Virus record (IMG/VR): IMGVR_UViG_3300031569_000508
Span: 1 to 23,611 of that record
Reading direction: 5' to 3' (one strand)
DNA from: a virus
Length of the DNA: 23,611 nucleotides
The first letter of the stretch is position 1, and each line of letters begins with the position of its first letter. The notes beneath the pieces are model-generated. The model was given only the letters and a program-made list of their open reading frames with translations. It did not search any database and was not told the origin of the DNA. The translations under genes were made by a program, and so were the position numbers. Shown piece by piece: positions 1 through 23,611 of the stretch.

Positions 1-1
1 T

Positions 2-577
2 AATAACGCTTATAATTGGTGTTTAGATAATGGTTTAACTCCTTCTGCTATGGTCATGGTAGATGCAAGAAAGTTTAATGCGAGGTTTACAAAACCTGTA
101 GTAGAGGAATGTAAATACTTTATAGCTTCACAATGTAACCCTAGTGTATTTGAGGGATTGCCAAAAGATAGAACTTATCTGTGGCATACGCAAGCAGACT
201 TATTAAAAGATATACTAGATGAGCAATATAAAACATGGTGGTCAGTTCCAGGAGGATCGACTGTATTGTTAAGAGCTATACCATTGTTTAGAATGTTAGG
301 ATTTAAAAGATTTCATTTATTTGGGTGTGACTCCTGTTTAAGTGAAGATGATATGCATCACGCATACGAACAAGAAGAAAATGATGGACAGTTAGTTATG
401 CCCGTAAACGTGAGCGGAAAAGTATTTAACTGTAACCCTTGGATGGTATCGCAAGCCCAAGAGTTTATTGACCTAATTAAAATGTTAGGTGATGAAATTG
501 AGTTAGCAATCTATGGTGGGTTATTACATCATATTTTAGAATCCGGCGCGTCATACGCCGATATTAAGGAGATTTAA
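2..577 (+). CDS. DUF115 / MptE-like protein, 5'-partial
   Basis: The frame is open from the left edge of the window, so the N-terminus is missing and the first in-frame Met (base 50) is probably internal. The visible part shows a VDARKFN stretch, a YFIASQCNP stretch and a GGSTVLLRAIPLFRMLGFKR helix followed by FHLFGCD and HHAYEQEEN. This order (Gly-rich loop, helix, strand ending in G-x-D, then H-x-A-Y) matches phage members of the DUF115 / 6-hydroxymethylpterin pyrophosphokinase MptE-like superfamily, which also includes flagellin-glycosylation MAF proteins. The reaction in phages is not established; a nucleotide-sugar or glycosyl-transfer role on virion or host surface is an inference from the superfamily. 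It lies directly upstream of the fibre array, one base before the next gene, so it is part of the late operon. A small GC-rich hairpin (544-560) lies in its 3' end. Confidence 0.55.
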   Translation, partial: NNAYNWCLDNGLTPSAMVMVDARKFNARFTKPVVEECKYFIASQCNPSVFEGLPKDRTYLWHTQADLLKDILDEQYKTWWSVPGGSTVLLRAIPLFRMLGFKRFHLFGCDSCLSEDDMHHAYEQEENDGQLVMPVNVSGKVFNCNPWMVSQAQEFIDLIKMLGDEIELAIYGGLLHHILESGASYADIKEI

Positions 578-578
578 C

Positions 579-1037
579 ATGGCAGCAACAGCATGGCAAC
601 TATACAACAGTGCCAAAAAATATATAGGCAATGGTACCATAACGTTAGGTGCCGGCGTGTTTAAAATGGTTTTAGCTCAAACAGCTAGTAATGCTTCTAC
701 ATTTACTTTGAGTACATACGCATCTGTGACAAATGAAGTTGCAGCCGCAGGTGGATATACTACCGGTGGTAGAGACTTAGTACCCGCTACAGCTCAATGG
801 ACAGTAGGTGCATCGGCTAAACAGCAGAAGTTTTCTATGTCTGCAGTGGGTTTAGCGTTTACAGCTTCGGGAGCTAGTCTAGTAAATATTAGATATGCGA
901 TTTTACGTAACTCTACAGGAGCAACTGCAGGTAAACTTTTATGTTTCTGTCAGCTATCTAGCTCACAATTTACTGTAACAAGCCCTAACACATTAACTGT
1001 TTTACCTGCTGCTACTGGCATATTTACCTTAACATAA
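579..1037 (+). CDS. Small virion structural protein (fibre region)
   Basis: A 152-residue, Ala/Thr/Ser-rich beta protein. The core pattern, F-K-M-V-L-A then S-V-T-N-E-V then G-Y-T-T-G-G, then a hydrophobic R-Y-A-I-L-R-N strand, resembles a widespread family of small phage virion proteins (roughly V-K-V-M-L ... V-S-N-E-V-x-G-x-G-Y-T-x-G-G ... A-R-Y-A-V-I) usually found next to tail or fibre genes. The exact role is unknown to me; a decoration, adaptor or tail-tip component is likely. The start is supported by AAGGAG at 566-571, seven bases before the ATG. It is the first gene of the fibre block and is followed after ten bases by the repeat protein at 1048. Confidence 0.55.
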   Translation: MAATAWQLYNSAKKYIGNGTITLGAGVFKMVLAQTASNASTFTLSTYASVTNEVAAAGGYTTGGRDLVPATAQWTVGASAKQQKFSMSAVGLAFTASGASLVNIRYAILRNSTGATAGKLLCFCQLSSSQFTVTSPNTLTVLPAATGIFTLT

Positions 1038-1047
1038 GGAGCTAGTA

Positions 1048-1860
1048 ATGGCTACCGGCTGGGGACGAAATACCTGGAGCTCTGGCCCATGGGGCGAAGG
1101 GGATGTAATATCGTTAATTACAGGATCTGTCGCTATATCCGGTGTAGCACCTAGTGTAGTTCAAGGTAAAGTAATAACTCCGGGTGTAAAAGATTTAGTA
1201 TTAGCTGGATTTGCACCAACAGTATTAACTGGAGCAGTAATAACTCCAGGTGTAAAAGATTTAGTATTAGCTGGAATAGCACCAAGTATATTTGAAAGTA
1301 GCGTAATAACCCCTAGTGTAGGGGCAGCGGTGTTAAACGGATTAACACCCGGTGTAGTCCAAGGTAAAGTAATAACACCTAGTGTAGGCGCAGTAACACT
1401 AGCTGGATTAGCACCAAGTTTAGTTTATGGAGATGTAGCAGCGGCACCAGCAGGAGCACTTGTATTACAAGGAATAGCTCCTCAAGTTGTACAGCAACTG
1501 AATGTATTTAAAACTCCACTGGTTGGAGCAGTAAGTATAGCAAGTGAAGCACCACACGTATTTGGTAGCACCGTTATAACGCCTAGTGTAGGCGCATTAA
1601 CTATAACAGGAATAATTCCTGGTAGAACTGAAGGCAGAGTTATTACTCCAAATGTAGGTGCATTAGCATTACAAGGGTTTGCCCCTTCGGAAGTAATAGG
1701 AAGAATTATAACCCCTAGTGGGACTAGTTTAAATTTACAGGGATTTGCACCTTTAATTAACAGTCCTGATTGGGTTATAATAGATACTACTCAAGACCCA
1801 GAATGGGTTATAATAGATACTACTCAAGTTCCTGATTGGACAGAGATAGTTACAGGATAA
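1048..1860 (+). CDS. Beta-repeat tail/fibre protein with 22-residue repeats
   Basis: A 270-residue protein in three parts. Residues 1-19 form an aromatic-glycine cap (GWGRNTWSSGPWGEG). Residues 20-241 are about ten tandem repeats, nine of 22 residues and one of 24, with consensus V-I-T-P-x-V-G-A-L-x-L-x-G-hydrophobic-A-P-x-V-x-x-G-x. Residues 242-270 contain 11-residue units, P-D/E-W-V-I-I-D-T-T-Q. A repeated strand-turn with regular Gly and Pro suggests an elongated beta-solenoid or fibrous shaft. No catalytic motif is visible. It shares its architecture with the protein at 7799-8515. The neighbours are fibre proteins, so a virion adhesin or structural shaft is the best inference. An ATG with GGAG four to eight bases upstream marks the start. 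Confidence 0.6.
   Translation: MATGWGRNTWSSGPWGEGDVISLITGSVAISGVAPSVVQGKVITPGVKDLVLAGFAPTVLTGAVITPGVKDLVLAGIAPSIFESSVITPSVGAAVLNGLTPGVVQGKVITPSVGAVTLAGLAPSLVYGDVAAAPAGALVLQGIAPQVVQQLNVFKTPLVGAVSIASEAPHVFGSTVITPSVGALTITGIIPGRTEGRVITPNVGALALQGFAPSEVIGRIITPSGTSLNLQGFAPLINSPDWVIIDTTQDPEWVIIDTTQVPDWTEIVTG
1105..1770 (+). repeat. Coding tandem repeats, 66-bp unit
   Basis: Ten in-frame units, mostly 66 bp, encode the 22-residue repeats of the protein at 1048. Adjacent units beginning near 1171 and 1237 are almost identical in DNA over about 40 bases, whereas others are diverged, which indicates stepwise duplication with some recent copies. Confidence 0.85.
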
Positions 1861-1869
1861 GGAAATAAT

Positions 1870-2889
1870 ATGTCAACGTATTCAAATTTATCGGTAGAGT
1901 TAATAGGAACCGGAGAACAGTCGGGCACATGGGGAACAACGACTAATACCAATTTAGGTACAGCAATGGAAGAAGCCATTGTTGGTACAGTCGATCAAGC
2001 TGTTGGTACAGGGGATACTACATTACCTTGGGCTACTGCTTCAAATGCTACTCAAGTAGCCCGTCACTTACGCCTTAACCTTACAGGAAGTGCAGGCGGA
2101 TCAGGAAATTTAATTATACCTACTGCCGCTGCAGGTGGTGCTGGCACTTTCCAAAAACAATTCTTAATTAAAAATAGCTCTGATACAGCTATAACAGTTA
2201 AAACTGCTTCAGGTTCAGGGGTGTTAGTTCCAGCAGGTAAAGCATCTTTTGTATATGCAGACGGTACCAATGTTGTTGCTTCTATTGATTATATTAGTGG
2301 GTCAATTGTTTCAGGCGATGTAACTATCACTGGCGGCACTATTAATAATACTCAGATAGGTAATACTACTCCAAATACAGGCGCTTTTACAACACTCGCA
2401 GCTTCAAGCACAGTTTCAGGCGCAGGCTTTACAGCGCGCTTTGCTACACCAGGACCTATTGGTAACACTGTTGCTAGCACAGGTAATTTTACAACTCTAG
2501 GGGCAACAGGTAATGTAACTCTAGGTGATGCGGTTGGAGATGAAGTCACTCATAATGCAGGGACAGTAAATATCCCTAATAACCTTATATACTCTGGTAC
2601 AGGAACAGTTACACTACCTAATGGTACTACAGGACAACGACCCACTCCCGCGGCAGGAATGATTAGATATAATTCAACTGAAGCTGAGTTTGAAGGGTAT
2701 GCAGATGGAGAATGGGGATCAATTGGCGGAGGTGCTTCGGCAGGTGGTGCTATCTATGAGAACGTTGACAATGTTTCAGAAAATTATACAATAACAGCAG
2801 GATCGAATGGTATGTCAGTAGGACCTATGACAATAGACTCAGGATTTACTGTTACTATTCCTGCGGGACAACGATGGGTGATATTATAA
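1870..2889 (+). CDS. Tail fibre protein
   Basis: A 339-residue fibre. The N-terminal signature (ELIGTGEQSGTWGTTTNTNL, residues 10-29) is the virion-attachment start seen in many phage fibres of this type. The middle consists of T/N/G-rich beta-repeats (G-x-I-x-N-T-x-I-G-x-x-T-P-x-x-G-A-F-T-T-L at about 155-175 and a related copy at about 190-205), typical of triple-helical shafts. Near the C-terminus, R-P-T-P-A-A-G-M-I-R-Y-N precedes a final block (E-N-V-D-N-V-S-E-N-Y-T-I-T-A-G-S-N-G-M-S-V-G-P) of about 45 residues. That last block resembles the entire free-standing protein at 4248-4412. Expected role: trimeric fibre in host recognition. The next gene starts two bases after the stop. Confidence 0.8.
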   Translation: MSTYSNLSVELIGTGEQSGTWGTTTNTNLGTAMEEAIVGTVDQAVGTGDTTLPWATASNATQVARHLRLNLTGSAGGSGNLIIPTAAAGGAGTFQKQFLIKNSSDTAITVKTASGSGVLVPAGKASFVYADGTNVVASIDYISGSIVSGDVTITGGTINNTQIGNTTPNTGAFTTLAASSTVSGAGFTARFATPGPIGNTVASTGNFTTLGATGNVTLGDAVGDEVTHNAGTVNIPNNLIYSGTGTVTLPNGTTGQRPTPAAGMIRYNSTEAEFEGYADGEWGSIGGGASAGGAIYENVDNVSENYTITAGSNGMSVGPMTIDSGFTVTIPAGQRWVIL

Positions 2890-2890
2890 T

Positions 2891-4075
2891 ATGAGTACAA
2901 TAATTAATGCAGACACAAGTAACGGACTAAAGCTAACCTCTGATACAAGTGGTGAGATAGAGCTACAATCAGCAGGGACAACTCAAGCTAAAATTACTTC
3001 TAGCGGATTACAAAATGCAAGTGGTAGTGCTATTACTTCACAAGCAGGTAGAAACCTTATCATCAATGGCAATATGGCTATTGACCAAAGAGGGGGCACA
3101 GCTACTATTAATGCAACGGGAGTTACTTATAATGTTGATAGATGGTTAGGTAGAGGGGTTGCTTCTGCTGGAGTATTTACATTAGCACAAGATACAACTT
3201 CACCAGCCAATTTTACAAATTCATTAAAAGCTACTGTTACAACAGCAGATAGTTCTATTGCTAGTGGGTCTTCTTATAGAGTTCAACAAATGGTTGAAGG
3301 TTATAATATAGCAAACCTTAATTGGGGTACTTCAGATGCACAGTCAGTATCTTTATCATTTTGGGTTCGTTCAAGTCAAACAGGAACATTTGGTGGTTCA
3401 GTTGGTAATGGCGATTATAATAGATTTAATGTATTTTCTTATACTATATCAGTAGCCAACACATGGGAATACAAAACAGTTACCATTGCAGGTGATACAT
3501 CAGGAACATGGGCAACAAATCAAAATTTAGGCTTAAGATTAAACTTTAGTTTAGGTGCAGGAAGTTCTATTTTAACATCTGCTGGTTCATGGGGGTCTGC
3601 GGTAAAAGAAGGTGTAACAGGACAAACAAATGTAATTGCTACAAGCGGTGCAACTTTTTATGTAACTGGAGTACAACTAGAAACAACTACTGCAACACCT
3701 TTTGAACACTTACAATATGGGCAACAATTAGCTTTGTGTCAGAGGTATTATCAGTTTATAACTGGAGCAGGTTCTAGTTATGCTTTTTTTGCTACGGGTA
3801 CTTATATATCTAGCACTCAATGTAGAGGTGTCCTTGTAAGTTCAAAAGTTAATTTCAGAGCTATTCCCACAATAACTTTTCAAGGAACTGCAAGTAATTA
3901 TAGAATATTGTCTAGTGCTACCAGAGCTTGTACTTCAATATCAGGAGTAATGTCTGATAAAAATGGACAACTATATTTTAATGCAACTAGTTCGGCTAGT
4001 ACGATTGGTAATTCAGGCTATTTGAGTTCAAATGGTACTTCTGCCACAGCTATTAACTTTTCAGCGGAGCTATAA
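2891..4075 (+). CDS. Tail fibre protein, copy A of duplicated cassette
   Basis: A 394-residue fibre. Residues 1-50 are a short shaft with a D-T-S-G-E-I-E-L unit; residues 55-68 carry NLIINGNMAIDQRG, a strong marker of a phage fibre jelly-roll domain; the body to about residue 275 is a beta-sandwich of carbohydrate-binding-module style; LQYGQQLALCQRYYQ at about 274-288 closes the domain. The remaining 105 or so residues form a tip. It aligns along most of its body with the protein at 6570-7634 (for example EGYN-hydrophobic-A-x-LNWGTSDAQ, SFWVRS, TGTFGG, TSGAT, EHLQYGQQL-x-LCQRYY), but the tips differ. The likely role is receptor binding. Its 3' end contains the ribosome binding site of the small gene at 4078. 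Confidence 0.85.
   Translation: MSTIINADTSNGLKLTSDTSGEIELQSAGTTQAKITSSGLQNASGSAITSQAGRNLIINGNMAIDQRGGTATINATGVTYNVDRWLGRGVASAGVFTLAQDTTSPANFTNSLKATVTTADSSIASGSSYRVQQMVEGYNIANLNWGTSDAQSVSLSFWVRSSQTGTFGGSVGNGDYNRFNVFSYTISVANTWEYKTVTIAGDTSGTWATNQNLGLRLNFSLGAGSSILTSAGSWGSAVKEGVTGQTNVIATSGATFYVTGVQLETTTATPFEHLQYGQQLALCQRYYQFITGAGSSYAFFATGTYISSTQCRGVLVSSKVNFRAIPTITFQGTASNYRILSSATRACTSISGVMSDKNGQLYFNATSSASTIGNSGYLSSNGTSATAINFSAEL
3732..3751 (+). repeat. 20-base direct repeat A at fibre domain/tip border
   Basis: The sequence ctttgtgtcagaggtattat is identical to 7390-7409 in the paralogous fibre gene. It encodes the end of the conserved L-C-Q-R-Y-Y block, immediately before the two proteins diverge. 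Confidence 0.9.
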
Positions 4076-4084
4076 TTATGACAT
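4065..4084 (+). repeat. 20-base direct repeat A at fibre stop / small-gene start
   Basis: The sequence cggagctataattatgacat is identical to 7624-7643. It spans the last codons and stop of the fibre gene, a GGAG ribosome binding site and the start codon of the following small gene, so it is both a translation junction and a possible recombination anchor. Confidence 0.9.
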
Positions 4085-4251
4085 TCAAATTAATAAATGA
4101 TGAAGATAATATAGCTGTAGCAGTTTTAAAAACAACAAATGATGCTATGGCTACAATTCCATTTGACCCAGCTAATACAGACTATCAAGAATACCTAGAA
4201 TGGTTAGAAGAAGGTAACGAACCAGAAGAAGCAGATGAGGAGACAGAATGA
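4078..4251 (+). CDS. Small acidic fibre-associated protein, copy A
   Basis: A 57-residue protein with a variable N-terminal half and an acidic C-terminal half, I-P-F-D-P-A-N-T-D-Y-Q-E-Y-L-E-W-L-E-E-G-N-x-P-E-E-A-D. The N-T-D-Y-Q-x-Y-L-x-W-x-x-E-G-N-x-P signature is common in small proteins directly after phage fibre genes. The function is unproven; a fibre assembly or chaperone role is often suspected from position. It is paralogous to the gene at 7637-7798, which follows the paralogous fibre. The start is set by GGAG at 4067-4070, and the stop overlaps the next start as ATGA. Confidence 0.7.
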   Translation: MTFKLINDEDNIAVAVLKTTNDAMATIPFDPANTDYQEYLEWLEEGNEPEEADEETE

Positions 4252-4412
4252 GCGTAACAATAAACGGCATAGGCTTTGTAGAAAACAGCACAACACTAGA
4301 TGAAAACTACACATTAGTAGACAATCGTAATGCGATGACTGCTGGTCCTGTTACAGTAGCCGATGGCATAACAATAACAGTAGGTGATGGCTCTACATGG
4401 AGTGTGGTCTAA
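4248..4412 (+). CDS. Free-standing fibre-tip-like module, 54 residues
   Basis: The ATG overlaps the previous stop by four bases (ATGA) and the stop overlaps the next start as TAATG, so this short frame is translationally coupled on both sides. The protein reads E-N-S-T-T-L-D-E-N-Y-T-L-V-D-N-R-N-A-M-T-A-G-P-V-T-V-A-D-G-I-T-I-T-V-G, then ends T-W-S-V-V. It matches the C-terminal block of the fibre at 1870-2889 (E-N-Y-T-I-T-A-G-S-N-G-M-S-V-G-P, ending R-W-V-I-L) in order and spacing. It is therefore the same beta-module existing as a separate polypeptide. Its role is unknown; a trimer cap, attachment adaptor or remnant of a larger fibre are all possible. Confidence 0.65.
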   Translation: MSVTINGIGFVENSTTLDENYTLVDNRNAMTAGPVTVADGITITVGDGSTWSVV

Positions 4413-4918
4413 TGGTAACTAAAGTAAACGGAAATAGCACCAGTACATTTGGTGGAGCTATATCTGCCAGTAATGTAGGTTCTGGAATACTACAAGTAGT
4501 TAACTATAATACTACTACAACATTTTCAACAACTGTTCGGTCATTGACGAATGTAACAGACTTTAATGTCACTCTTACTCCAGCTTCAAGCACTTCAAAA
4601 ATTTTGGTATTTGTTGATTTTAGGTATGGGAACAGTAGTTCGGGAAGTGTTAAAGCCTCCTTGTTAAGAGATGCAGTTTCAATATCGCTTGGGGGTGATA
4701 ACAATTTATCAAATGTTTATGTAGGTCATGGAAGTACAACTCAAGGATTTGGAAGTTTTAGCTTTTCATACCTAGACTCACCAAGTACAACATCGGCAGT
4801 CACTTATCAACTTCAAGCGTTTTCTAGTGCTGGAACACTTTACATAAACAACAGAAATAATGGCAATACTAGTGCTAATGTTATGGGTTCAATGACAGCA
4901 ATGGAGGTGGCAGCGTGA
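4412..4918 (+). CDS. Fibre-like virion protein
   Basis: A 168-residue beta protein. I place the start at the ATG of the TAATG overlap (4412); an upstream in-frame ATG (4397) would overlap the previous gene further and is less likely. After a short N-terminal shaft (F-G-G-A-I-S-A-S-N-V-G-S-G) it has G-I-L-Q-V-V-N-Y followed by V-T-L-T-P-A-S-S-T-S-K-I-L-V-F-V-D-F and a L-L-R-D strand. This is a pattern common in marine phage fibre modules that fold as a compact beta-sandwich. Likely a receptor-binding or fibre accessory protein. It ends in a GTGA overlap with the next gene. Confidence 0.65.
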   Translation: MVTKVNGNSTSTFGGAISASNVGSGILQVVNYNTTTTFSTTVRSLTNVTDFNVTLTPASSTSKILVFVDFRYGNSSSGSVKASLLRDAVSISLGGDNNLSNVYVGHGSTTQGFGSFSFSYLDSPSTTSAVTYQLQAFSSAGTLYINNRNNGNTSANVMGSMTAMEVAA

Positions 4919-5400
4919 GCACAGTAAAAAGTAAAAATCTACAGGTAGGTACAGATGCGACAGCTACTAACAACTTTACTATCTATCAACCATCTACACC
5001 TGATGGCACATTAAGGATTGGTGTCGGTAATGCTGATAGTCCTACAGAGGTAGCACAGTTTACATCAGCAGGAATGGTTAGCGGAGCTACATCTCTTACA
5101 ACAGCATCTGGTTCAGCTCCAAGTTACTCTGCAAGAGCATGGGTAAACTTTGATGGAACTCTAGCAGCAGCAAGTATGATTAGAGGTAGTGGAAATGTGA
5201 GTAGTATGACAGACACTGGAACAGGAAACTATAGGGTTAATTATGCCACTGTAATGTCTGACAGTAATTACGCTGCTGTCGCTGGAACATCAAATGATAG
5301 CACTATTAGACTTGATTTACATGCAACAACCAACGTAAGAGTAGTAACTAATGCCACTGCTGCCAATGCGGCTATTATTTCTGTAGCAATTTTTAGATAG
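4915..5400 (+). CDS. Fibre-like virion protein (GTG start)
   Basis: A 161-residue protein starting at GTG 4915, in a GTGA overlap with the previous stop; GGAGG at 4903-4907 lies seven bases upstream and supports the start. The N-terminal half has a short strand repeat (N-F-T-I-Y-Q-P-S-T-P-D-G-T-L-R-I-G-V-G) and ends with F-T-S-A-G-M. The C-terminal half begins A-R-A-W-V-N-F-D-G-T, and then S-M-T-D-T-G-T-G-N-Y-R-V-N-Y, a module repeatedly found at tips of phage fibres. Probably an adhesin or tip module. Confidence 0.7.
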   Translation: MSTVKSKNLQVGTDATATNNFTIYQPSTPDGTLRIGVGNADSPTEVAQFTSAGMVSGATSLTTASGSAPSYSARAWVNFDGTLAAASMIRGSGNVSSMTDTGTGNYRVNYATVMSDSNYAAVAGTSNDSTIRLDLHATTNVRVVTNATAANAAIISVAIFR

Positions 5401-5408
5401 GACAAATT

Positions 5409-5603
5409 ATGAATAAAGTAATAGTATATACACAAGACGATGAAACAGTTGCAGTAGTTATTCCTACCCCAGAAGGATTAGAGACAATGACAGTAGAAGA
5501 AATTGCAGATAAAGATGTACCGACAGGCAAAGAGTATCACATTGTAGAAGATTCAGAAATACCAACTGACAGAACTTTTAGGGATGCGTGGATATGGGAA
5601 TAA
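5409..5603 (+). CDS. Small fibre-region protein, 64 residues
   Basis: A short acidic protein, with a V-A-V-V-I-P-T-P strand, D-V-P-T-G-K-E-Y-H-I-V, then I-P-T-D-R-T-F-R-D-A-W-I-W-E at the C-terminus. The D-x-P-x-G-x-x-Y-x-I-V and R-x-F-R-x-A-W motifs recur in small proteins located among fibre genes of marine phages. Function unknown. It sits nine bases after the preceding fibre and its end overlaps the start of the gene at 5594, so the two are probably made together. Confidence 0.6.
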   Translation: MNKVIVYTQDDETVAVVIPTPEGLETMTVEEIADKDVPTGKEYHIVEDSEIPTDRTFRDAWIWE

Positions 5604-5818
5604 CAGTCAACATAGACAAAGCTAAAGACATCACAAAGGATAGACTTCGTGAAGAGCGTAAGCCATTGCTTGAAGCACAAGATGTATTGTTCCAACGAGC
5701 ATTAGAATCAAGTGCAGATACAACAGCTATCGTAAAAGAAAAAAAAAGACTACGAGACATAACTAAACAAGTAGACAGCCTGACAACTGTTGAGGAATTA
5801 AAAAAGGCAACTGTATAA
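5594..5818 (+). CDS. Small helical protein, 74 residues
   Basis: I choose ATG 5594 (MGITVNIDKAKDITKD); a GTG at 5588 would add two residues. The protein is highly charged and helical: K-A-K-D-I-T-K-D-R-L-R-E-E-R-K-P-L-L-E-A-Q-D-V, then residues compatible with a coiled coil, ending T-V-E-E-L-K-K-A-T. It matches a family of small phage proteins that follow the R-x-F-R-x-A-W type gene, as here. The role is unknown; a fibre assembly cofactor is an inference from gene order. It overlaps the previous gene by ten bases and its TAA forms TAATG with the next start. Confidence 0.6.
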   Translation: MGITVNIDKAKDITKDRLREERKPLLEAQDVLFQRALESSADTTAIVKEKKRLRDITKQVDSLTTVEELKKATV

Positions 5819-6393
5819 TGACTATAACACTCAAACCCACAGCATCAGAAACTACCATACAAAACAATGGCAGTGATATATTTACTGTAGATAGTACGGG
5901 TATAGCAATGGCTAGTGGTAAAACAATACAAAATGCTAGCGGAGATGTTGTAACTAACACACCAGCATTTAGTGCAAAAATAGCAAGTTCACAAAGTTTA
6001 TCTGAAACTACTAATACAAAACTTGCATTTGACACTGAAGATTTTGATACTGATAGTGCTTTTGATACATCTACCAATAGGTTTACTGTGCCTGCAGGAA
6101 AAGCAGGTCTATATTCTATTAGTGGTCTTGCGAGAATAGACTCACAGGTAAATACTAATTTAGTAATATCTATATTTTCTATTCTCAAAAATGGTTCTAA
6201 CCATAAACGCAGCTATCAATATTATAGTGCTAATTATATTAGGTCAGCTGGTATCTGTATAACATCAATAATGGATTTAGCAGTAGGCGACTATATAGAA
6301 CTGTATGGCTATATAAATGCAGCTGATAATACTGGTGGTCAAGTACTTCAAGGGGCTGATTCAACTTTTTGTGGACATAGACTAATAACATAG
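5818..6393 (+). CDS. Fibre protein with C1q/TNF-like C-terminal domain
   Basis: A 191-residue protein. Residues 1-48 are a short beta shaft (D-I-F-T-V-D-S-T-G-I-A-M-A-S-G-K-T-I-Q-N). From A-F-S-A-K (about residue 50) to the end it has the strand pattern of a C1q/TNF-like jelly roll: F-D-T at mid-domain, R-F-T-V-P-A-G-K-A-G-L-Y-S-I-S-G, then I-F-S-I-L-K-N-G, M-D-L-A-V-G-D-Y-I-E-L-Y-G-Y and terminal F-C-G-H-R-L-I. In phages such domains form trimeric fibre tips. Start is the ATG in a TAATG overlap at 5816-5820. The C1q assignment rests on pattern only. Confidence 0.7.
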   Translation: MTITLKPTASETTIQNNGSDIFTVDSTGIAMASGKTIQNASGDVVTNTPAFSAKIASSQSLSETTNTKLAFDTEDFDTDSAFDTSTNRFTVPAGKAGLYSISGLARIDSQVNTNLVISIFSILKNGSNHKRSYQYYSANYIRSAGICITSIMDLAVGDYIELYGYINAADNTGGQVLQGADSTFCGHRLIT

Positions 6394-6402
6394 GTAAAAA
6401 TA

Positions 6403-6570
6403 ATGACACTATATCAAAAAATAATAACACTATACCCAGAGCTAACAGATGAAGCATTTTTACCAGAAGGTACAATTGCATTACAAAACGATAATGATGA
6501 CAGAGGTGACTACATCAAAGAATGGAATCATCCTACATTAGCTAAACCAACAGACGAGGAATTAGCATAA
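6403..6570 (+). CDS. XkdW-like small tail protein
   Basis: A 55-residue protein beginning M-T-L-Y-Q-K-I-I-T-L-Y-P-E-L-T and continuing with I-A-L-Q-N-D-N-D-D-R-G-D-Y-I-K-E-W-N-H-P-T-L-A-K-P-T. The L-Q-N-D-x-D-x-x-G-D-Y-I-x-x-W-x-H-P motif is the hallmark of the XkdW family, named after the Bacillus PBSX prophage tail-region protein. The biochemical role of XkdW is not established; it is usually found near tail fibre genes. It stops in a TAATG with the following fibre gene, which suggests coupled synthesis. Confidence 0.75.
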   Translation: MTLYQKIITLYPELTDEAFLPEGTIALQNDNDDRGDYIKEWNHPTLAKPTDEELA

Positions 6571-7634
6571 TGGCTAGTATTAAACTAAAAGGCGATACCT
6601 CTGGTGAGATTACCATATCGTCTCCTAGTGTTGCAGGGACTAATACATTAGAGCTACAGGCAACTAGCGGTACATTAGCAACAACAGCCCAAGCTAGTAT
6701 CGGTATGAAGAACAGAATTATCAATGGTAATATGGCTATTAACCAAAGAGGTAGTGCTAGTTATGATATAACTGGTGCGGTGTATACATTAGACCGATAC
6801 AGAGGAGGTGCAAGCATAGCAAGCAAATTCAGTATAGCACCAGGAACAACAACTCCTCCAGCAGGGTTTACTAACTATTTACAAGTTACTTCATCAGCAG
6901 CAACTACTCCTGGTTCAACAGATAACTATAGTTTTTTTCAAAGAGTTGAAGGCTACAATGTAGCAGATTTAAACTGGGGGACTTCAGATGCTCAAACAGT
7001 AACTATGTCTTTCTGGGTACGCAGTACATTAACTGGTACGTTTGGTGGTAAACTTCAAAATTCAGCACAGAACAGAATCTATATATTTAGCTACACTATT
7101 TCTTCTGCTAACACATGGGAAAAGAAAACCATAACTATTACAGGTGATACTACGGGTACTTGGCTTACAACTACTGGTGTAGGACTTGCTATAAACTTTA
7201 GTGTAGGTGCAGGTACAGGTGCAGAGGCAACAGCAGGTTCATGGGGAACTGATAATGTTCCTATGCAACCAACAGGCTCAACAAATGTAGTAGCAACATC
7301 AGGAGCAACATGGCAAATAACAGGGCTACAACTAGAAGCAGGCACAGTTGCAACTCCATTTGAACACCTACAATATGGACAACAGTTATCTTTGTGTCAG
7401 AGGTATTATGAGACTGGTTTAGCGTGGGGTGGAAGTAGACATTCAGATAATTTTGCAATTATGCAAGCAGCTTTTAAAGTAACAAAAAGAGCCAATCCAA
7501 CAATGACATATACAGCTGTTTCTGGTGGTACACCAGCAGCCAATGGAGTTACCATAGATAGTTCAACCTTTTATAACATCACTACAATAAACTCGGTAGG
7601 TTCGGCTACTTGGGTTGCAGTTTCGGAGCTATAA
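6570..7634 (+). CDS. Tail fibre protein, copy B of duplicated cassette
   Basis: A 354-residue paralogue of the fibre at 2891-4075. It has a D-T-S-G-E-I-T-I shaft unit (residues 9-16), NRIINGNMAINQRG at 48-61, the long beta-sandwich with V-E-G-Y-N-V-A-D-L-N-W-G-T-S-D-A-Q and S-F-W-V-R-S, then E-H-L-Q-Y-G-Q-Q-L-S-L-C-Q-R-Y-Y at about 264-279. After that point the roughly 75-residue tip is different from copy A. The body is conserved while the tip is not, as expected for receptor-binding proteins diversifying after duplication. Translation starts in a TAATG overlap with the XkdW-like gene. Confidence 0.85.
   Translation: MASIKLKGDTSGEITISSPSVAGTNTLELQATSGTLATTAQASIGMKNRIINGNMAINQRGSASYDITGAVYTLDRYRGGASIASKFSIAPGTTTPPAGFTNYLQVTSSAATTPGSTDNYSFFQRVEGYNVADLNWGTSDAQTVTMSFWVRSTLTGTFGGKLQNSAQNRIYIFSYTISSANTWEKKTITITGDTTGTWLTTTGVGLAINFSVGAGTGAEATAGSWGTDNVPMQPTGSTNVVATSGATWQITGLQLEAGTVATPFEHLQYGQQLSLCQRYYETGLAWGGSRHSDNFAIMQAAFKVTKRANPTMTYTAVSGGTPAANGVTIDSSTFYNITTINSVGSATWVAVSEL
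7390..7409 (+). repeat. 20-base direct repeat B at fibre domain/tip border
   Basis: Identical to 3732-3751 of copy A. It lies at the junction between the conserved body and the divergent tip of the copy B fibre. Confidence 0.9.
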
Positions 7635-7643
7635 TTATGACAT
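7624..7643 (+). repeat. 20-base direct repeat B at fibre stop / small-gene start
   Basis: Identical to 4065-4084 of copy A. It includes the fibre stop codon, the GGAG of the next gene and its ATG. Confidence 0.9.
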
Positions 7644-7798
7644 ATAAATTAACAAAAAATATAGATGGAATTATAAATACAACACAAGTGCAACGAATAA
7701 GTGATGGGGCATTTATCCCACTAGAGCCTGACAACACAGACTACCAAAAGTATTTAGAATGGTTAGAAGAAGGTAATACACCAGAAGAAGCAGAGTAA
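7637..7798 (+). CDS. Small acidic fibre-associated protein, copy B
   Basis: A 53-residue paralogue of the gene at 4078-4251: the shared part is I-P-L-E-P-D-N-T-D-Y-Q-K-Y-L-E-W-L-E-E-G-N-T-P-E-E-A, while the N-terminal half (M-T-Y-K-L-T-K-N-I-D-G) is diverged. I place the start at ATG 7637, inside the conserved junction repeat and seven bases after GGAG (7626-7629); a longer in-frame TTG start at 7610 lacks support because it lies inside the fibre gene. It is probably a fibre assembly or accessory protein, by position. It is followed directly by the ATG of the next gene (TAAATG). Confidence 0.7.
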   Translation: MTYKLTKNIDGIINTTQVQRISDGAFIPLEPDNTDYQKYLEWLEEGNTPEEAE

Positions 7799-8515
7799 AT
7801 GTACGGATTTTCTGCATTTTCACAGAGTCCATACTCTACACTAGGCACTATAGTAAAAACAGGTGCTGCACAGATAGAGGGTATAGGAACTCTTACAGCG
7901 AGTGCATTAAGAGAAAGAACTTCTGCTGCATCTATCAGTGCAACTGCAACACTAACAGCAGATGGAATATTAGTTAGATTTGGTAGTGCAAGTGTTACAG
8001 GGACAGCCACATTAACAGCATTAGGTGGTCTTGTTAATAATGCAACAGGTTCTATTACAGGTGCTGCTACTGTTACAGCTGATGGTATTTATGTCGCATT
8101 TGGTAGTGGTGATATTAGTGGTCGTGCAACACTAACAGTCGCTTTATCAGGTTCTATTATTTATGCTGATGCTAGTATTAGTGGCACAGCAACATTAACT
8201 GCTGATGGTTTAAGAATAACATTTGGTGATGCAAGTATTACTGGCACTGCTACTTTAACTGCTCTAGGTGGATTATTAATAGCTGGTCAGGCAAATGTAG
8301 AAGGTGTTGCTACATTAGAAATACTTTCAACAGTAGTTAGACACGCAAATGCTTCTGTAACAGGTGTAGGAACATTAACAGCATTAGGAACAATACTTGG
8401 TGAAGAATGGACTGATGTACCAGTAGAAACAAACACATGGTCAGCAGTATCAGCAGGTAGTGACATATGGACAGACTCAACAGCAGGAACTAACGATTGG
8501 AAACGACAAGGATAA
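7799..8515 (+). CDS. Beta-repeat tail/fibre protein with 20-residue repeats
   Basis: A 238-residue protein in three parts. Residues 1-22 are an aromatic/Gly/Ser cap (MYGFSAFSQSPYSTLG). Residues 23-203 are nine tandem repeats of about 20 residues, consensus A-S-I-T-G-T-A-T-L-T-A-x-G-x-x-x-x-x-G-x. Residues 204-238 carry four tryptophans at an exact ten-residue spacing (W204, W214, W224, W234). The cap, hydrophobic short repeats and tryptophan ladder repeat the layout of the protein at 1048-1860, although the repeat sequence differs. An elongated virion shaft or adhesin is the likely role. Its start directly abuts the previous stop. Confidence 0.6.
   Translation: MYGFSAFSQSPYSTLGTIVKTGAAQIEGIGTLTASALRERTSAASISATATLTADGILVRFGSASVTGTATLTALGGLVNNATGSITGAATVTADGIYVAFGSGDISGRATLTVALSGSIIYADASISGTATLTADGLRITFGDASITGTATLTALGGLLIAGQANVEGVATLEILSTVVRHANASVTGVGTLTALGTILGEEWTDVPVETNTWSAVSAGSDIWTDSTAGTNDWKRQG
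7865..8407 (+). repeat. Coding tandem repeats, about 60-bp unit
   Basis: Nine in-frame units of mainly 60 bp encode the 20-residue beta repeats. At the DNA level they are more diverged than the repeats at 1105-1770, so the array looks older or under stronger selection. Confidence 0.8.
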
Positions 8516-8518
8516 AAC

Positions 8519-9310
8519 ATGGCAAAAATTAAAGTATCGCAGTGGGATAGTGTTGCAGCTAATAACACTGACATTAACTCTATTAACATAAATGAGGGGT
8601 GTCCCCCTAGCACAATCAACAATGCTATTCGTGAAACAATGGCACAAATTAAAGATTGGCAAGATGGGTCTAGTGGAGATGGTTGGACTAGTAATGGGAC
8701 AATTACATCAGCAGGTACATTAGATGTTACTGGAAGCCTTACATTAGATGGTTCAACAGGAACATTTGGACAAGTTTTAGTTTCTACTGGTACATCATCT
8801 ACGCCTACATGGGGCAGTGGCTTTCCTACAGGTGGTATTATTTTATGGTCAGGCTCTACAGGTTCTATACCTAGTGGTTGGGCATTATGTAATGGTGGTT
8901 CTGGTACTCCTAACTTAACAAGTAGATTTATTGTTGGAGCAGGAGGCACTTATGCAGTAAATGCAACAGGTGGTAGTGCTAATGCTACCTTACCAGCACA
9001 CAACCACACAGCATCTACAAGTGTGGCTACTAAATCAGGATTAAACGGCACATTAACTTTACTCAATAGAGGAGGTAGTTCTGGGGCATCATCATTAATG
9101 GCAGCTAGTTCAGGTAGTATTGTTAGAAACAACAGCACAGGTAGTTTTGGTGCTGGATGGCAAGGAGAGGGAGGAAGTAATTCTTCTCGTGCAACATTCA
9201 CATTAAACCACAATCACTCTGCTTCTACCTCTGTTAATTCTTCAGGAACAAGTGCAACCAATGCTAACTTACCTCCTTACTATGCACTTGCATACATAAT
9301 GAAACTATAA
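8519..9310 (+). CDS. Tail fibre with phage collar domain
   Basis: A 263-residue fibre. Residues 1-50 (MAKIKVSQWDSVAANNTDIN, then N-E-G-C-P-P-S-T-I-N-N-A-I-R-E-T-M-A-Q-I-K-D-W) are the conserved N-terminal attachment region of many marine phage fibres. A short shaft is followed by a phage tail collar domain at about 105-140: G-G-I-I-L-W-S-G, P-S-G-W-A-L-C-N-G, and P-N-L-T-S-R-F-I-V-G-A-G. Two H-N-H triplets (161-163 and 231-233) lie in S/T/N-rich loops, recalling the metal-binding H-x-H motifs of T4 gp12 and gp37 tips. The protein ends L-P-P-Y-Y-A-L-A-Y-I-M-K-L, typical of this family. It should form a trimeric host-recognition fibre. Confidence 0.85.
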   Translation: MAKIKVSQWDSVAANNTDINSININEGCPPSTINNAIRETMAQIKDWQDGSSGDGWTSNGTITSAGTLDVTGSLTLDGSTGTFGQVLVSTGTSSTPTWGSGFPTGGIILWSGSTGSIPSGWALCNGGSGTPNLTSRFIVGAGGTYAVNATGGSANATLPAHNHTASTSVATKSGLNGTLTLLNRGGSSGASSLMAASSGSIVRNNSTGSFGAGWQGEGGSNSSRATFTLNHNHSASTSVNSSGTSATNANLPPYYALAYIMKL

Positions 9311-22387: not shown

Positions 22388-22654
22388 CTAGAAAGGAACA
22401 TCTGAAGCTATTTCGTCAAAACTTTTAGGTGCTACTGTTTCTTTAGGTGCGTTACTATTATCAGGCACATATGGTTCTTGCATTTGTCCACTCATATATG
22501 TTGCCCCTGCTTTAGATTCTCTTACCCATGCACTTAATGACATTTCTTTACCGCCTTCTAAAGTAATTGTCCCTGTGTAATCAGGTTGTGAATCTTTAGT
22601 TTTGTTATTTTTAAATAACGCAAACCTGTTAGTGTTATCATATTGTTCAGCCAT
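22388..22654 (-). CDS. SSB-like protein with acidic C-terminal tip
   Basis: An 88-residue protein. The first 60 residues (N-R-F-A-L-F-K-N; Q-P-D-Y-T-G-T-I-T-L; K-E-M-S-L-S-A-W-V-R-E-S; Y-M-S-G-Q-M) have the strand pattern of a small OB-like fold seen in phage proteins annotated as single-strand DNA binding. The C-terminal part is a Pro/Asn-rich linker and an acidic tip D-E-I-A-S-D-V-P-F, close to the D-D-D-I-P-F tail by which bacterial SSB recruits partner proteins. It sits directly next to the exonuclease and annealase, overlapping the exonuclease gene by eight bases. AAGGAG lies seven bases before the start. Confidence 0.55.
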   Translation of the reverse strand: MAEQYDNTNRFALFKNNKTKDSQPDYTGTITLEGGKEMSLSAWVRESKAGATYMSGQMQEPYVPDNSNAPKETVAPKSFDEIASDVPF

Positions 22655-23279
22655 GTTGATTCTCCTTTATGGTTTTAATTTTATATTCTACTTCTTGCAC
22701 GAATGTGCTTACTTCTTCTTCCAAACGAGCTATCAGCTCATTATCTCTTGGCACTCTCTTGATGAATAATTTTAGGTCATCAGGAAAATCTGGGTGGTAA
22801 GATACAAAGTCACACCACTTAATATGTTCTCCCACACAAGCCATTTGCCACATCATCTGGTGCATATATCTCTTATGTATCTCTCCTGTTTCTAATGTTG
22901 TGGTATGTGTCATAGGTTGTGGGCATTTAATTTCTATTAACCCATCATCTCCTACCAATCCATCAGGACTTGCACCACACATATCTATGCTAGGGTGGTC
23001 TATCATGCCAACATCTCTTACATCAGTACCTACTAGCAACTTCCTATGATTAGCATAACAAGTCTTGGCTTCATCTTCATACTCTACACCATGAGCCATA
23101 GCGTTATTCATAAATATAGGTACAACTTTACCTGTTAATCTTTCTGTCACTAACTGCATACGATACTTTGTTTTATAGGTAGACTCTCCTACTTTAGTCT
23201 TAATCATAATGTCATGTATCTTACTAGCAGTGACCTTACCTAAACGAGCTTTGAACCATTCATCTGTCCGTTGTTCCAT
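22647..23279 (-). CDS. YqaJ / lambda-type exonuclease
   Basis: A 210-residue protein of the YqaJ viral recombinase family. The N-terminus has R-T-D-E-W-F-K-A-R-L-G-K-V-T-A-S-K (4-20); the active site shows P105-D106-G-L in A-S-P-D-G-L-V-G and E116-I-K118 in L-I-E-I-K-C-P; and H-Q-M-M-W-Q-M-A near 138-146 is the expected Q-x-x-x-Q helix. The enzyme should degrade one strand of double-stranded DNA ends to give 3' single strands for annealing, as lambda Red alpha does. Its start is in a TAATG overlap with the annealase gene. Confidence 0.85.
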   Translation of the reverse strand: MEQRTDEWFKARLGKVTASKIHDIMIKTKVGESTYKTKYRMQLVTERLTGKVVPIFMNNAMAHGVEYEDEAKTCYANHRKLLVGTDVRDVGMIDHPSIDMCGASPDGLVGDDGLIEIKCPQPMTHTTTLETGEIHKRYMHQMMWQMACVGEHIKWCDFVSYHPDFPDDLKLFIKRVPRDNELIARLEEEVSTFVQEVEYKIKTIKENQHG

Positions 23280-23611
23280 TATTTAGTCTCCTGTAACTTC
23301 TGTATAAATGGAGTGCATAACTTTCTATCAGCTTCATCTAGTCCGTTGAAGTATTGTCTAGCTTTATTAATTCCTTGCTCTTTATGAATGTTCTCTATAT
23401 GTTCTAAAACATCATGTGGGGGGAGGTCTTCTCCATAATACAGGTGAAGCGAAATTCCAAAAAGGGCAATGCCTTTTGCTAAACATCTTTGCATAGCCGT
23501 ATTTAATTGCATTGTATTAGGATTCTTAATGGCTTGATTCTTAAAATCTAATACAGGTAATTGTGCAGTCATCTCTTTACCAAATGCTTTGACTGTGCAA
23601 AATACCATCAT
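23279..23611 (-). CDS. Sak-family single-strand annealing protein (DUF1071), 5'-partial
   Basis: The gene runs off the right edge, so the N-terminus is missing; the apparent Met at the edge is probably internal. The visible part has L-P-V-L-D-F-K-N-Q-A-I-K-N-P-N and N-T-A-M-Q-R-C-L-A-K-G-I-A-L-F-G-I-S-L-H-L-Y-Y-G-E-D-L-P, the core signature of DUF1071 / Sak-like annealases, a Rad52-like group first known from lactococcal phage ul36. A linker and short C-terminal helices follow. It should coat single strands made by the neighbouring exonuclease and anneal them. TAATG coupling with the exonuclease. Confidence 0.75.
   Translation of the reverse strand: MMVFCTVKAFGKEMTAQLPVLDFKNQAIKNPNTMQLNTAMQRCLAKGIALFGISLHLYYGEDLPPHDVLEHIENIHKEQGINKARQYFNGLDEADRKLCTPFIQKLQETK

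Follow-up and report, generated by a model that had tools for sequence, protein, structure and literature searches.

A phage fibre whose tip is probably exchanged at short conserved joints together with the head of a small partner protein

At the distal tail-fibre locus of the T-even phages, adhesin specificity is reportedly swapped between conserved motifs, as described by Tetart, Desplats and Krisch in 1998, a case said to concern the glycine-rich adhesins gp37/gp38. In this study, we examined a virus record of 23,611 bases (IMG/VR IMGVR_UViG_3300031569_000508; this whole stretch is hereafter the window), whose tail-fibre region resembles that of Methylophilales phage Venkman and contains two cassettes, each of a fibre gene and a small open reading frame (ORF). 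In contrast to the T-even case, here the C-terminal tip of a fibre with a body like that of carbohydrate-binding modules (CBM) appears to move with the head of a small downstream protein. We are fairly confident that this fibre is a modular receptor-binding protein whose tips are exchanged by homologous recombination at short conserved joints, along with the head of the small partner. Tip swapping between motifs being already known, what is new is the fibre family, the mapped joints, and a joint that divides the small gene, its head alone travelling with the tip.

In lytic E. coli phages, an exchangeable receptor-binding domain has been reported to be flanked by conserved DNA blocks, of 44 or 95 nt ahead of it and 20 nt behind it, and these motifs were put forward as hotspots of recombination across genera (Pas et al. 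2023, PMC10408124). The locus examined here shows the traits of such motif-flanked exchange: conserved sequence before the variable domain (anchor 1, within a joint of 60-90 nt), a conserved far border (a helix-coding block of the small ORF, or the tip end in cyanophages), and a tip domain shared by different bodies, the breaks lying at the motifs. In the sections of that paper on which we draw, the anchor domain ends with the first block, and the third resembles a terminator and is non-coding, whereas here both blocks are coding, the second being a ribosome-binding site (RBS), and the full length of the gene was covered in counting alignment ends. For the small gene, the parallel is with the two-part chaperones of Pam3 gp24/gp25 and TfaMu, which, in the portion of that account used here, have a variable fibre-binding N-terminal beta part and a conserved C-terminal helical part (PMC9608196). 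As with TfaMu and Pam3 gp25, our small gene lies directly downstream of the fibre, with a variable N-terminal part matched to the tip and a conserved helical C-terminal part; it differs in that its protein is mostly 50-60 amino acids (aa) long with one helix, and in that the joint lies inside it. Excerpts on Alteromonas phages A5 and V22 describe tail fibre and chaperone modules, fibre and chaperone being shared across distant phages (PMC10579305), and tail-fibre C-termini and carbohydrate-binding genes are listed among the variable metaviromic islands of marine phages in an account which, in the part consulted, gives no joints or conserved flanks (PMC3909814), whereas joints are mapped here. 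Two further systems for comparison are diversity-generating retroelements, marked by a reverse transcriptase, a template repeat and adenine-directed variation, and the invertible tail-fibre segments of Mu (G) and P1 (C), marked by inverted repeats and an invertase; tips here differ by replacement of the whole domain, and the two of the window are in direct orientation. A description of the present joint was not found in the literature searched (one library).

The original prediction, made from the window alone, had described two fibres with a common body, completely different tips and identical 20-base anchors exactly before and after the tip. Both ORFs are indeed present, with bodies 57% identical and tips in direct orientation, and both 20-mers read as described, anchor 1 being CTTTGTGTCAGAGGTATTAT and anchor 2 CGGAGCTATAATTATGACAT. 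The cassettes are laid out as follows.

2891-4075, plus strand: fibre A, 394 aa, comprising an N-terminal part, a CBM-like body and a 107-aa tip (ORF; PHROG 4492 tail fiber, E 2.3e-51)
3059-3091, plus strand: N-terminal joint of fibre A (IINGNMAIDQR), where homology with relatives L094/L095 ends
3691-3751, plus strand: left joint of cassette A (body end), containing anchor 1 at 3732-3751; 89% identical to 7349-7412
3752-4072, plus strand: variable tip of fibre A, 107 aa
4065-4084, plus strand: anchor 2A, with the last tip codons (AEL stop), a GGAG Shine-Dalgarno and the start of small ORF A
4078-4251, plus strand: small ORF A, 57 aa, putative tip-specific chaperone (PHROG 20370, E 1.7e-9)
4156-4235, plus strand: right joint A, conserved C-terminal helix block (NTDYQEYLEWLEEGN); 80% identical to 7715-7794
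6570-7634, plus strand: fibre B, 354 aa, of the same body family as fibre A, with a 74-aa tip (ORF, PHROG search, body identity)
7349-7409, plus strand: left joint of cassette B, containing anchor 1 at 7390-7409
7410-7631, plus strand: variable tip of fibre B, 74 aa
7624-7643, plus strand: anchor 2B, with the tip end, stop, GGAG Shine-Dalgarno and start of small ORF B
7637-7798, plus strand: small ORF B, 53 aa, putative tip-specific chaperone (PHROG 20370, E 1.7e-12)
7715-7794, plus strand: right joint B, conserved C-terminal helix block; 80% identical to 4156-4235

The 20-mers are parts of longer homologous blocks, one at the body end (3691-3754 and 7349-7412, 89% identity over 64 nt) and one around anchor 2 at the tip end (4065-4107 and 7624-7666, 84% over 43 nt), and a third block, absent from the original prediction, lies inside the small ORFs (80% over 80 nt). 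Anchor 1 does stand at the body end, whereas anchor 2 brackets the tip less precisely than had been claimed, since it takes in the final three codons of the tip and the stop codon, then the Shine-Dalgarno and the beginning of the ORF that follows. Likewise, the tips are very divergent (36% identity with free end gaps, slightly above the usual value for unlike tips), and calling them completely different was slightly too strong: because an invariant Arg (R307), a nearly invariant Pro and a C-terminal EL recur across 76 fibres, the tips form one very divergent family. The exact double anchor is no chance occurrence, as at least 119 viral stretches contain it with the same spacing; in the prokaryote genome collection it turned up in only 2. 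A synonymous double anchor with CAA-AGA is found in 81 viral stretches (complete scan), a figure not to be set in ratio to the 119 for CAG-AGG, the latter being a lower bound.

Relatives' loci were fetched with degenerate back-translated peptides favouring no particular codons. From 133 distinct motif hits we kept 113 distinct complete fibres, including those of the window and Venkman (complete ORF, tip of 60-130 aa, at least 80 aa upstream), for codon and pair comparisons; adding the double-anchor loci gave a larger set of 224 distinct fibres out of 266. Body and tip identity are nearly uncorrelated over 6328 fibre pairs (r = 0.14). Of the 106 pairs whose bodies are at least 0.7 identical, 84 show tip identity below 0.4, and conversely 19 pairs share tips at 0.6 or more on bodies below 0.65. 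Under 80% nucleotide clustering, 9 of 12 multi-member body clusters include at least two tip types, 13 of the 20 tip clusters with more than one member are spread over at least two body clusters, and a minimum of 19 tip replacements is required. Among the matches listed for 80 double-anchor loci, 86 in number at anchor 1, no tip stood on a foreign body: 84 had the same body family and the other 2 were too short to test.

Tip exchange at anchor 1 is supported by these comparisons because body alignments end there and because the same tip recurs on different bodies. In an all-against-all fibre comparison with no selection on body identity, 73 of 125 strong body alignments whose right end was free stop +12 to +30 nt from the start of anchor 1 (TTGTGTCAGAGGTATTAT), none of the 125 stops within the tip, and none end at +30 to +420 or at -600 to -100; 18 end at -900 to -600, 18 at +420 to +600, and the remaining 16 elsewhere. 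An ungapped comparison of same-body/different-tip pairs placed the change-point 16-25 nt from the anchor 1 start in 27 of 32. Approached from the other side, nine same-tip/different-body events, chosen for low body identity, break between codon -29 and codon 0 of anchor 1. Together, alignment ends and this break range define the left joint as the final 60-90 nt of the body, anchor 1 forming its distal end. The window fits this pattern, its homology to L084/L085 and Venkman ending at 3751 in cassette A, and that to L091 and Venkman at 7409-7411 in cassette B. Fibre A is 76% identical over 329 aa to tail fibre gp57 of Venkman, a phage which likewise has two cassettes (gp57+gp56 and gp53+gp52); its body is 80-86% identical in aa to those of gp57 and L034, and the tips are unlike.

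A third joint seems to lie at the N-terminal end of the body, where 90% homology with L094/L095 over 1-3091 ends at 3059-3091; the 18 alignments that end 600-900 nt before anchor 1 match this zone. Residues 1-42 of fibre B (6570-6695) are 79% identical to the start of an otherwise different fibre of OM43 phage MEP301.

Could the same picture arise with no exchange at all, the anchors reflecting coding and RBS constraint in paralogous fibres, and the tips differing by fast evolution under host selection? The peptide CQRYY is near-invariant in the protein, and the GGAG of anchor 2 follows the position of the start codon, as this account would have it. Against it, tips 95-100% identical are found on bodies of only 26-60% identity, including in cultured phages, near-identical genomes show an abrupt single-point drop in identity, and one relative, L089, changes parent twice. 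We therefore hold it to be very improbable. The original prediction had named this outcome, constraint alone and no recombinant tips, as its own alternative; tips that appear recombinant are found, and the constraint reading is largely right for anchor 2 alone.

The L089 fibre (22-732) follows Venkman cassette 1 to about position 420 and cassette 2 from about 481 through the tip and the N-terminal half of the small ORF, and returns to cassette 1 from about 871, so that it combines a cassette-1 body and small-protein tail with a cassette-2 tip and head. This double switch indicates that tip and small-protein head moved between cassette types as one piece, in line with the suggestion that tips can pass between copies. 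Among cultured cyanophages, S-N03 and S-H34 share the body of fibre 1 at 0.87 and its tip at 0.07; conversely, S-N03 and MA01 have fibre 2 bodies at 0.49 and tips at 1.00, and S-H34 and MA01 fibre 3 bodies at 0.26 and tips at 0.95 (MA01, MA10, ME01 and MC09 show no mutual difference in these genes at the 95% level). S-N03 and S-H34 each have four fibres with anchor 1, with no small ORF of this kind annotated after them, and homology between the two resumes 15-27 nt before each fibre stop. The Synechococcus phages (L264, L265, L268-L271) have one cluster of four fibre genes, each with anchor 1 and carrying a repeated tip-end block, GACGCYGAACTYTGATAC in most.

These complete genomes also bear on whether short-read assemblers had misjoined tips at the shared 20-mers. 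Most loci do come from metagenome contigs, and the anchors recur within genomes. Usual assembly k-mers are, for their part, far longer than the shared exact words. Since the same mosaic pattern is seen in cultured phages, assembly error is unlikely as a general cause, and we give it next to no probability.

The right side of the exchange is less uniform. An ORF of at least 25 aa starts at the fibre stop after 221 of 224 fibres. GGAG stands at anchor 2 in 80 of 89 cases in which the next ATG lies 0 to +3 nt from the stop, in 4 of 5 with the ATG at -1, in 5 of 15 at -4 (all five carrying a second ATG near +2) and in 0 of 3 further off. Anchor 2 is thus mainly the Shine-Dalgarno of the small ORF, written into the tip's last codons. 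In 91 fibres with a complete, motif-matching small ORF (of 112 with a small ORF), the N-terminal half of the small protein has a mean identity of 0.86 in 40 same-tip pairs and 0.32 in 48 same-body/different-tip pairs, whereas the C-terminal half tracks the tip less strictly (0.77 and 0.55). Where the small ORF is present, the N-terminal half of its product thus travels with the tip.

Near-identical genomes, picked from the identity tables rather than taken as all pairs (as were the nine same-tip events), locate the joint. Between L027 and L031, homology is lost at 6706 (anchor at 6691-6708) and regained at 7137, inside a small ORF at 7026-7187, the differences in the tip being whole-domain replacements; L061/L113, L108/L115, L119/L122, L052/L060 and L003/L096 behave in the same way. 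Homology resumes at the very end of the small ORF for L052/L053 and at the tip end for L047/L059; MEP401 and MEP402 differ throughout the fibre, their homology returning within the small ORF. In the window, homology returns at 4191, inside small ORF A, with L085, and in cassette B at 7617, the tip end, with L091, at 7730 with Venkman and at 7769 with L085. Of the expectation that breakpoints cluster at both anchors, then, the left half stands, whereas on the right homology mostly resumes inside the small ORF. The usual right joint is the NTDYQxYLxW helix of the small protein, downstream of anchor 2. In phages with a small ORF, anchor 2 usually lies inside the exchanged segment rather than at its edge; it marks the right edge in those cyanophages that lack the small ORF and, less often, in other phages (4 of 14 pairs).

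Structurally, an AlphaFold model of fibre B, based on 76 aligned fibres, has a mean predicted local distance difference test score (pLDDT) of 81.4, lower in the tip and N-terminus, and folds the body as a beta-sandwich, followed by a helix spanning residues 269-277 and a beta-structured tip that starts at residue 280. Foldseek matched the body to CBM4 carbohydrate-binding modules (best E 1.3e-6, template modelling score 0.67 by target), and anchor 1 is predicted from this model to encode the helix-to-strand junction between body and tip. The protein of small ORF B is modelled (pLDDT 90.6) as three strands followed by a helix at 34-44. No Pfam family matched 62 members of the small protein, a PDB sequence search returned no convincing chain (E 0.27 or worse), and PDB fold matches were weak (Z 3.6 at most) and are not used as evidence. 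By analogy with the two-part chaperones above, the small protein is most likely a tip-specific assembly chaperone, and the tip itself would bind the receptor.

Such models leave room for random illegitimate recombination anywhere in the gene, selection then keeping only joints at domain boundaries, the only places that give a working protein. The predicted position of anchor 1 at the helix-to-strand boundary agrees with this account, as do joints that would separate folded units from one another, one of them dividing the strands of the small protein from its helix. Same-tip breaks, on the other hand, lie within a conserved 30-codon block of clear nucleotide identity, and annealing functions are encoded by the phage. 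Random joining is compatible with joint-guided exchange, the two accounts not being exclusive, and we regard it as unlikely.

Several observations weigh against exchange at the two proposed joints. Only 14 of 73 same-body pairs regain downstream homology, 4 of these at the tip end, where anchor 2 lies, and 10 at 63 nt or more past the stop. Several same-tip pairs with body identity below 0.93, and 5 of the 32 same-body pairs, place the break elsewhere in the body, and the 18 alignments ending at the N-terminal joint and the 18 at +420 to +600 likewise fall away from anchor 1. The pairs are not independent, 73 being drawn among 43 fibres, and alignment ends mark the loss of homology, so that the crossover may sit upstream by up to 29 codons. 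Exchange is seen by comparison rather than directly, mostly in metagenome contigs. The window's own swap is supported indirectly, through the discordance of body and tip, as no relative of the tip of fibre A or of fibre B was found in viral_contigs.

To place anchor 1 at the DNA level, we compared its codons with those elsewhere in the same genes. Its Leu is TTG in 56 of 81 (14% elsewhere), its Gln CAG in 78 of 113 (27%) and its Arg AGG in 67 of 113 (14%). By departure from codon usage over 146 testable columns, Leu and Arg rank first and second and Gln twelfth; other body columns deviate too (TTC, CTA, AAG, ATC, GAC), often toward C-ending codons. The anchor bias is present in all four quartiles of GC content at third codon positions (GC3), CGG taking the place of some AGG in the most GC-rich one, and persists with one representative per 60% body cluster (AGG 22/35). 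Among diverged pairs, Leu, Arg and Tyr have a raised shared-codon excess and Gln does not, with still higher values in other columns. Two candidate explanations were rejected: an internal translation start after anchor 1, as the first 12 codons of the tip show no enrichment of ATG, and a homogenisation of synonymous sites rising toward the joint, as the pairwise same-codon measure shows no general rise and, by codon usage, the anchor codons alone stand out.

The DNA of anchor 1 thus appears to be kept beyond the need of the protein, perhaps as a recombination core, perhaps as a translation signal. A translational signal, such as a rare-codon or Shine-Dalgarno-like pause at the domain boundary, would account for the conservation of the DNA only and not for tip movement. 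The persistence of the CAG and AGG bias across the GC3 quartiles speaks for it, as does a codon excess strongest at the anchor codons and uneven over the joint block. It is weakened by the frequent CGG in place of AGG in GC-rich phages, which makes a poorer Shine-Dalgarno match, by the absence of an enriched in-frame internal start, and by the deviation of the other body columns; we see it as possible, if doubtful. We would voice only tentatively, as a rather unlikely extension, that anchor 1 is a DNA-level 'socket', 15-18 bp of coding sequence which phages of Methylophilales, Synechococcus and many uncultured hosts would maintain for recombination over and above what the protein requires, and through which distantly related phages would draw cassettes of tip and chaperone head from a common aquatic pool, also between the cassette positions within one genome.

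The annealase and exonuclease pair invoked in the original prediction is encoded in the window, along with an ORF resembling a single-strand DNA-binding protein.

22388-22654, minus strand: single-strand DNA-binding protein-like ORF (PHROG 18154, E 8.1e-13)
22647-23279, minus strand: YqaJ-type exonuclease (PF09588, E 4.2e-23)
23279-23611, minus strand: Sak-type single-strand annealing protein (PF06378, E 3.3e-18), running to the contig end

We take the Sak protein of the window to be Rad52-like. In the sections of De Paepe et al. (PMC3945230) drawn on here, Rad52-like phage recombinases outdo RecA on diverged sequences, and the minimal pairing segment of Red-beta is quoted as 23-27 bp. As 20 bp is slightly below that length, the 64-nt block is a likelier substrate than the anchor alone. 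Sak and YqaJ would presumably serve in tip exchange. In the mechanism we propose, the fibre would consist of an N-terminal attachment part, a carbohydrate-binding-like body and an exchangeable tip, with the small partner gene next to it, and new tips would enter by homologous recombination across short conserved joints: on the left the terminal 60-90 nt of the body, closed by anchor 1, and on the right the helix-coding block of the small gene or, in phages without it, the tip end at anchor 2. Donors would be coinfecting relatives or another cassette type. The exchanged unit would comprise tip, RBS and chaperone head, so that the interacting pair would move together with reading frame and RBS intact.

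Elsewhere in the window, the small tail genes between the cassettes (4237-6568) match L014, L003, L109 and L092 in short blocks, often at 82-92% and in changed order, as if each had a conserved start and a variable end. A 191-aa protein (5818-6393) matches the C1q domain weakly (PF00386, E 1.1e-4), narrowly missing the curated cut-off. An ORF at 1048-1860 holds five imperfect 66-nt direct repeats at 1136-1669, and a 27-nt inverted repeat (8413-8439 and 8771-8797, 89% complementary, 331 nt apart) lies across the 8515/8519 gene border.

In conclusion, this analysis provides a concrete, countable joint for the exchange of putative host-range modules in aquatic phages, including those of OM43 methylotrophs and Synechococcus. 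An exchanged unit that includes half of the partner gene would explain how tip and helper stay matched, and the anchors make tip repertoires directly readable from metagenomes.

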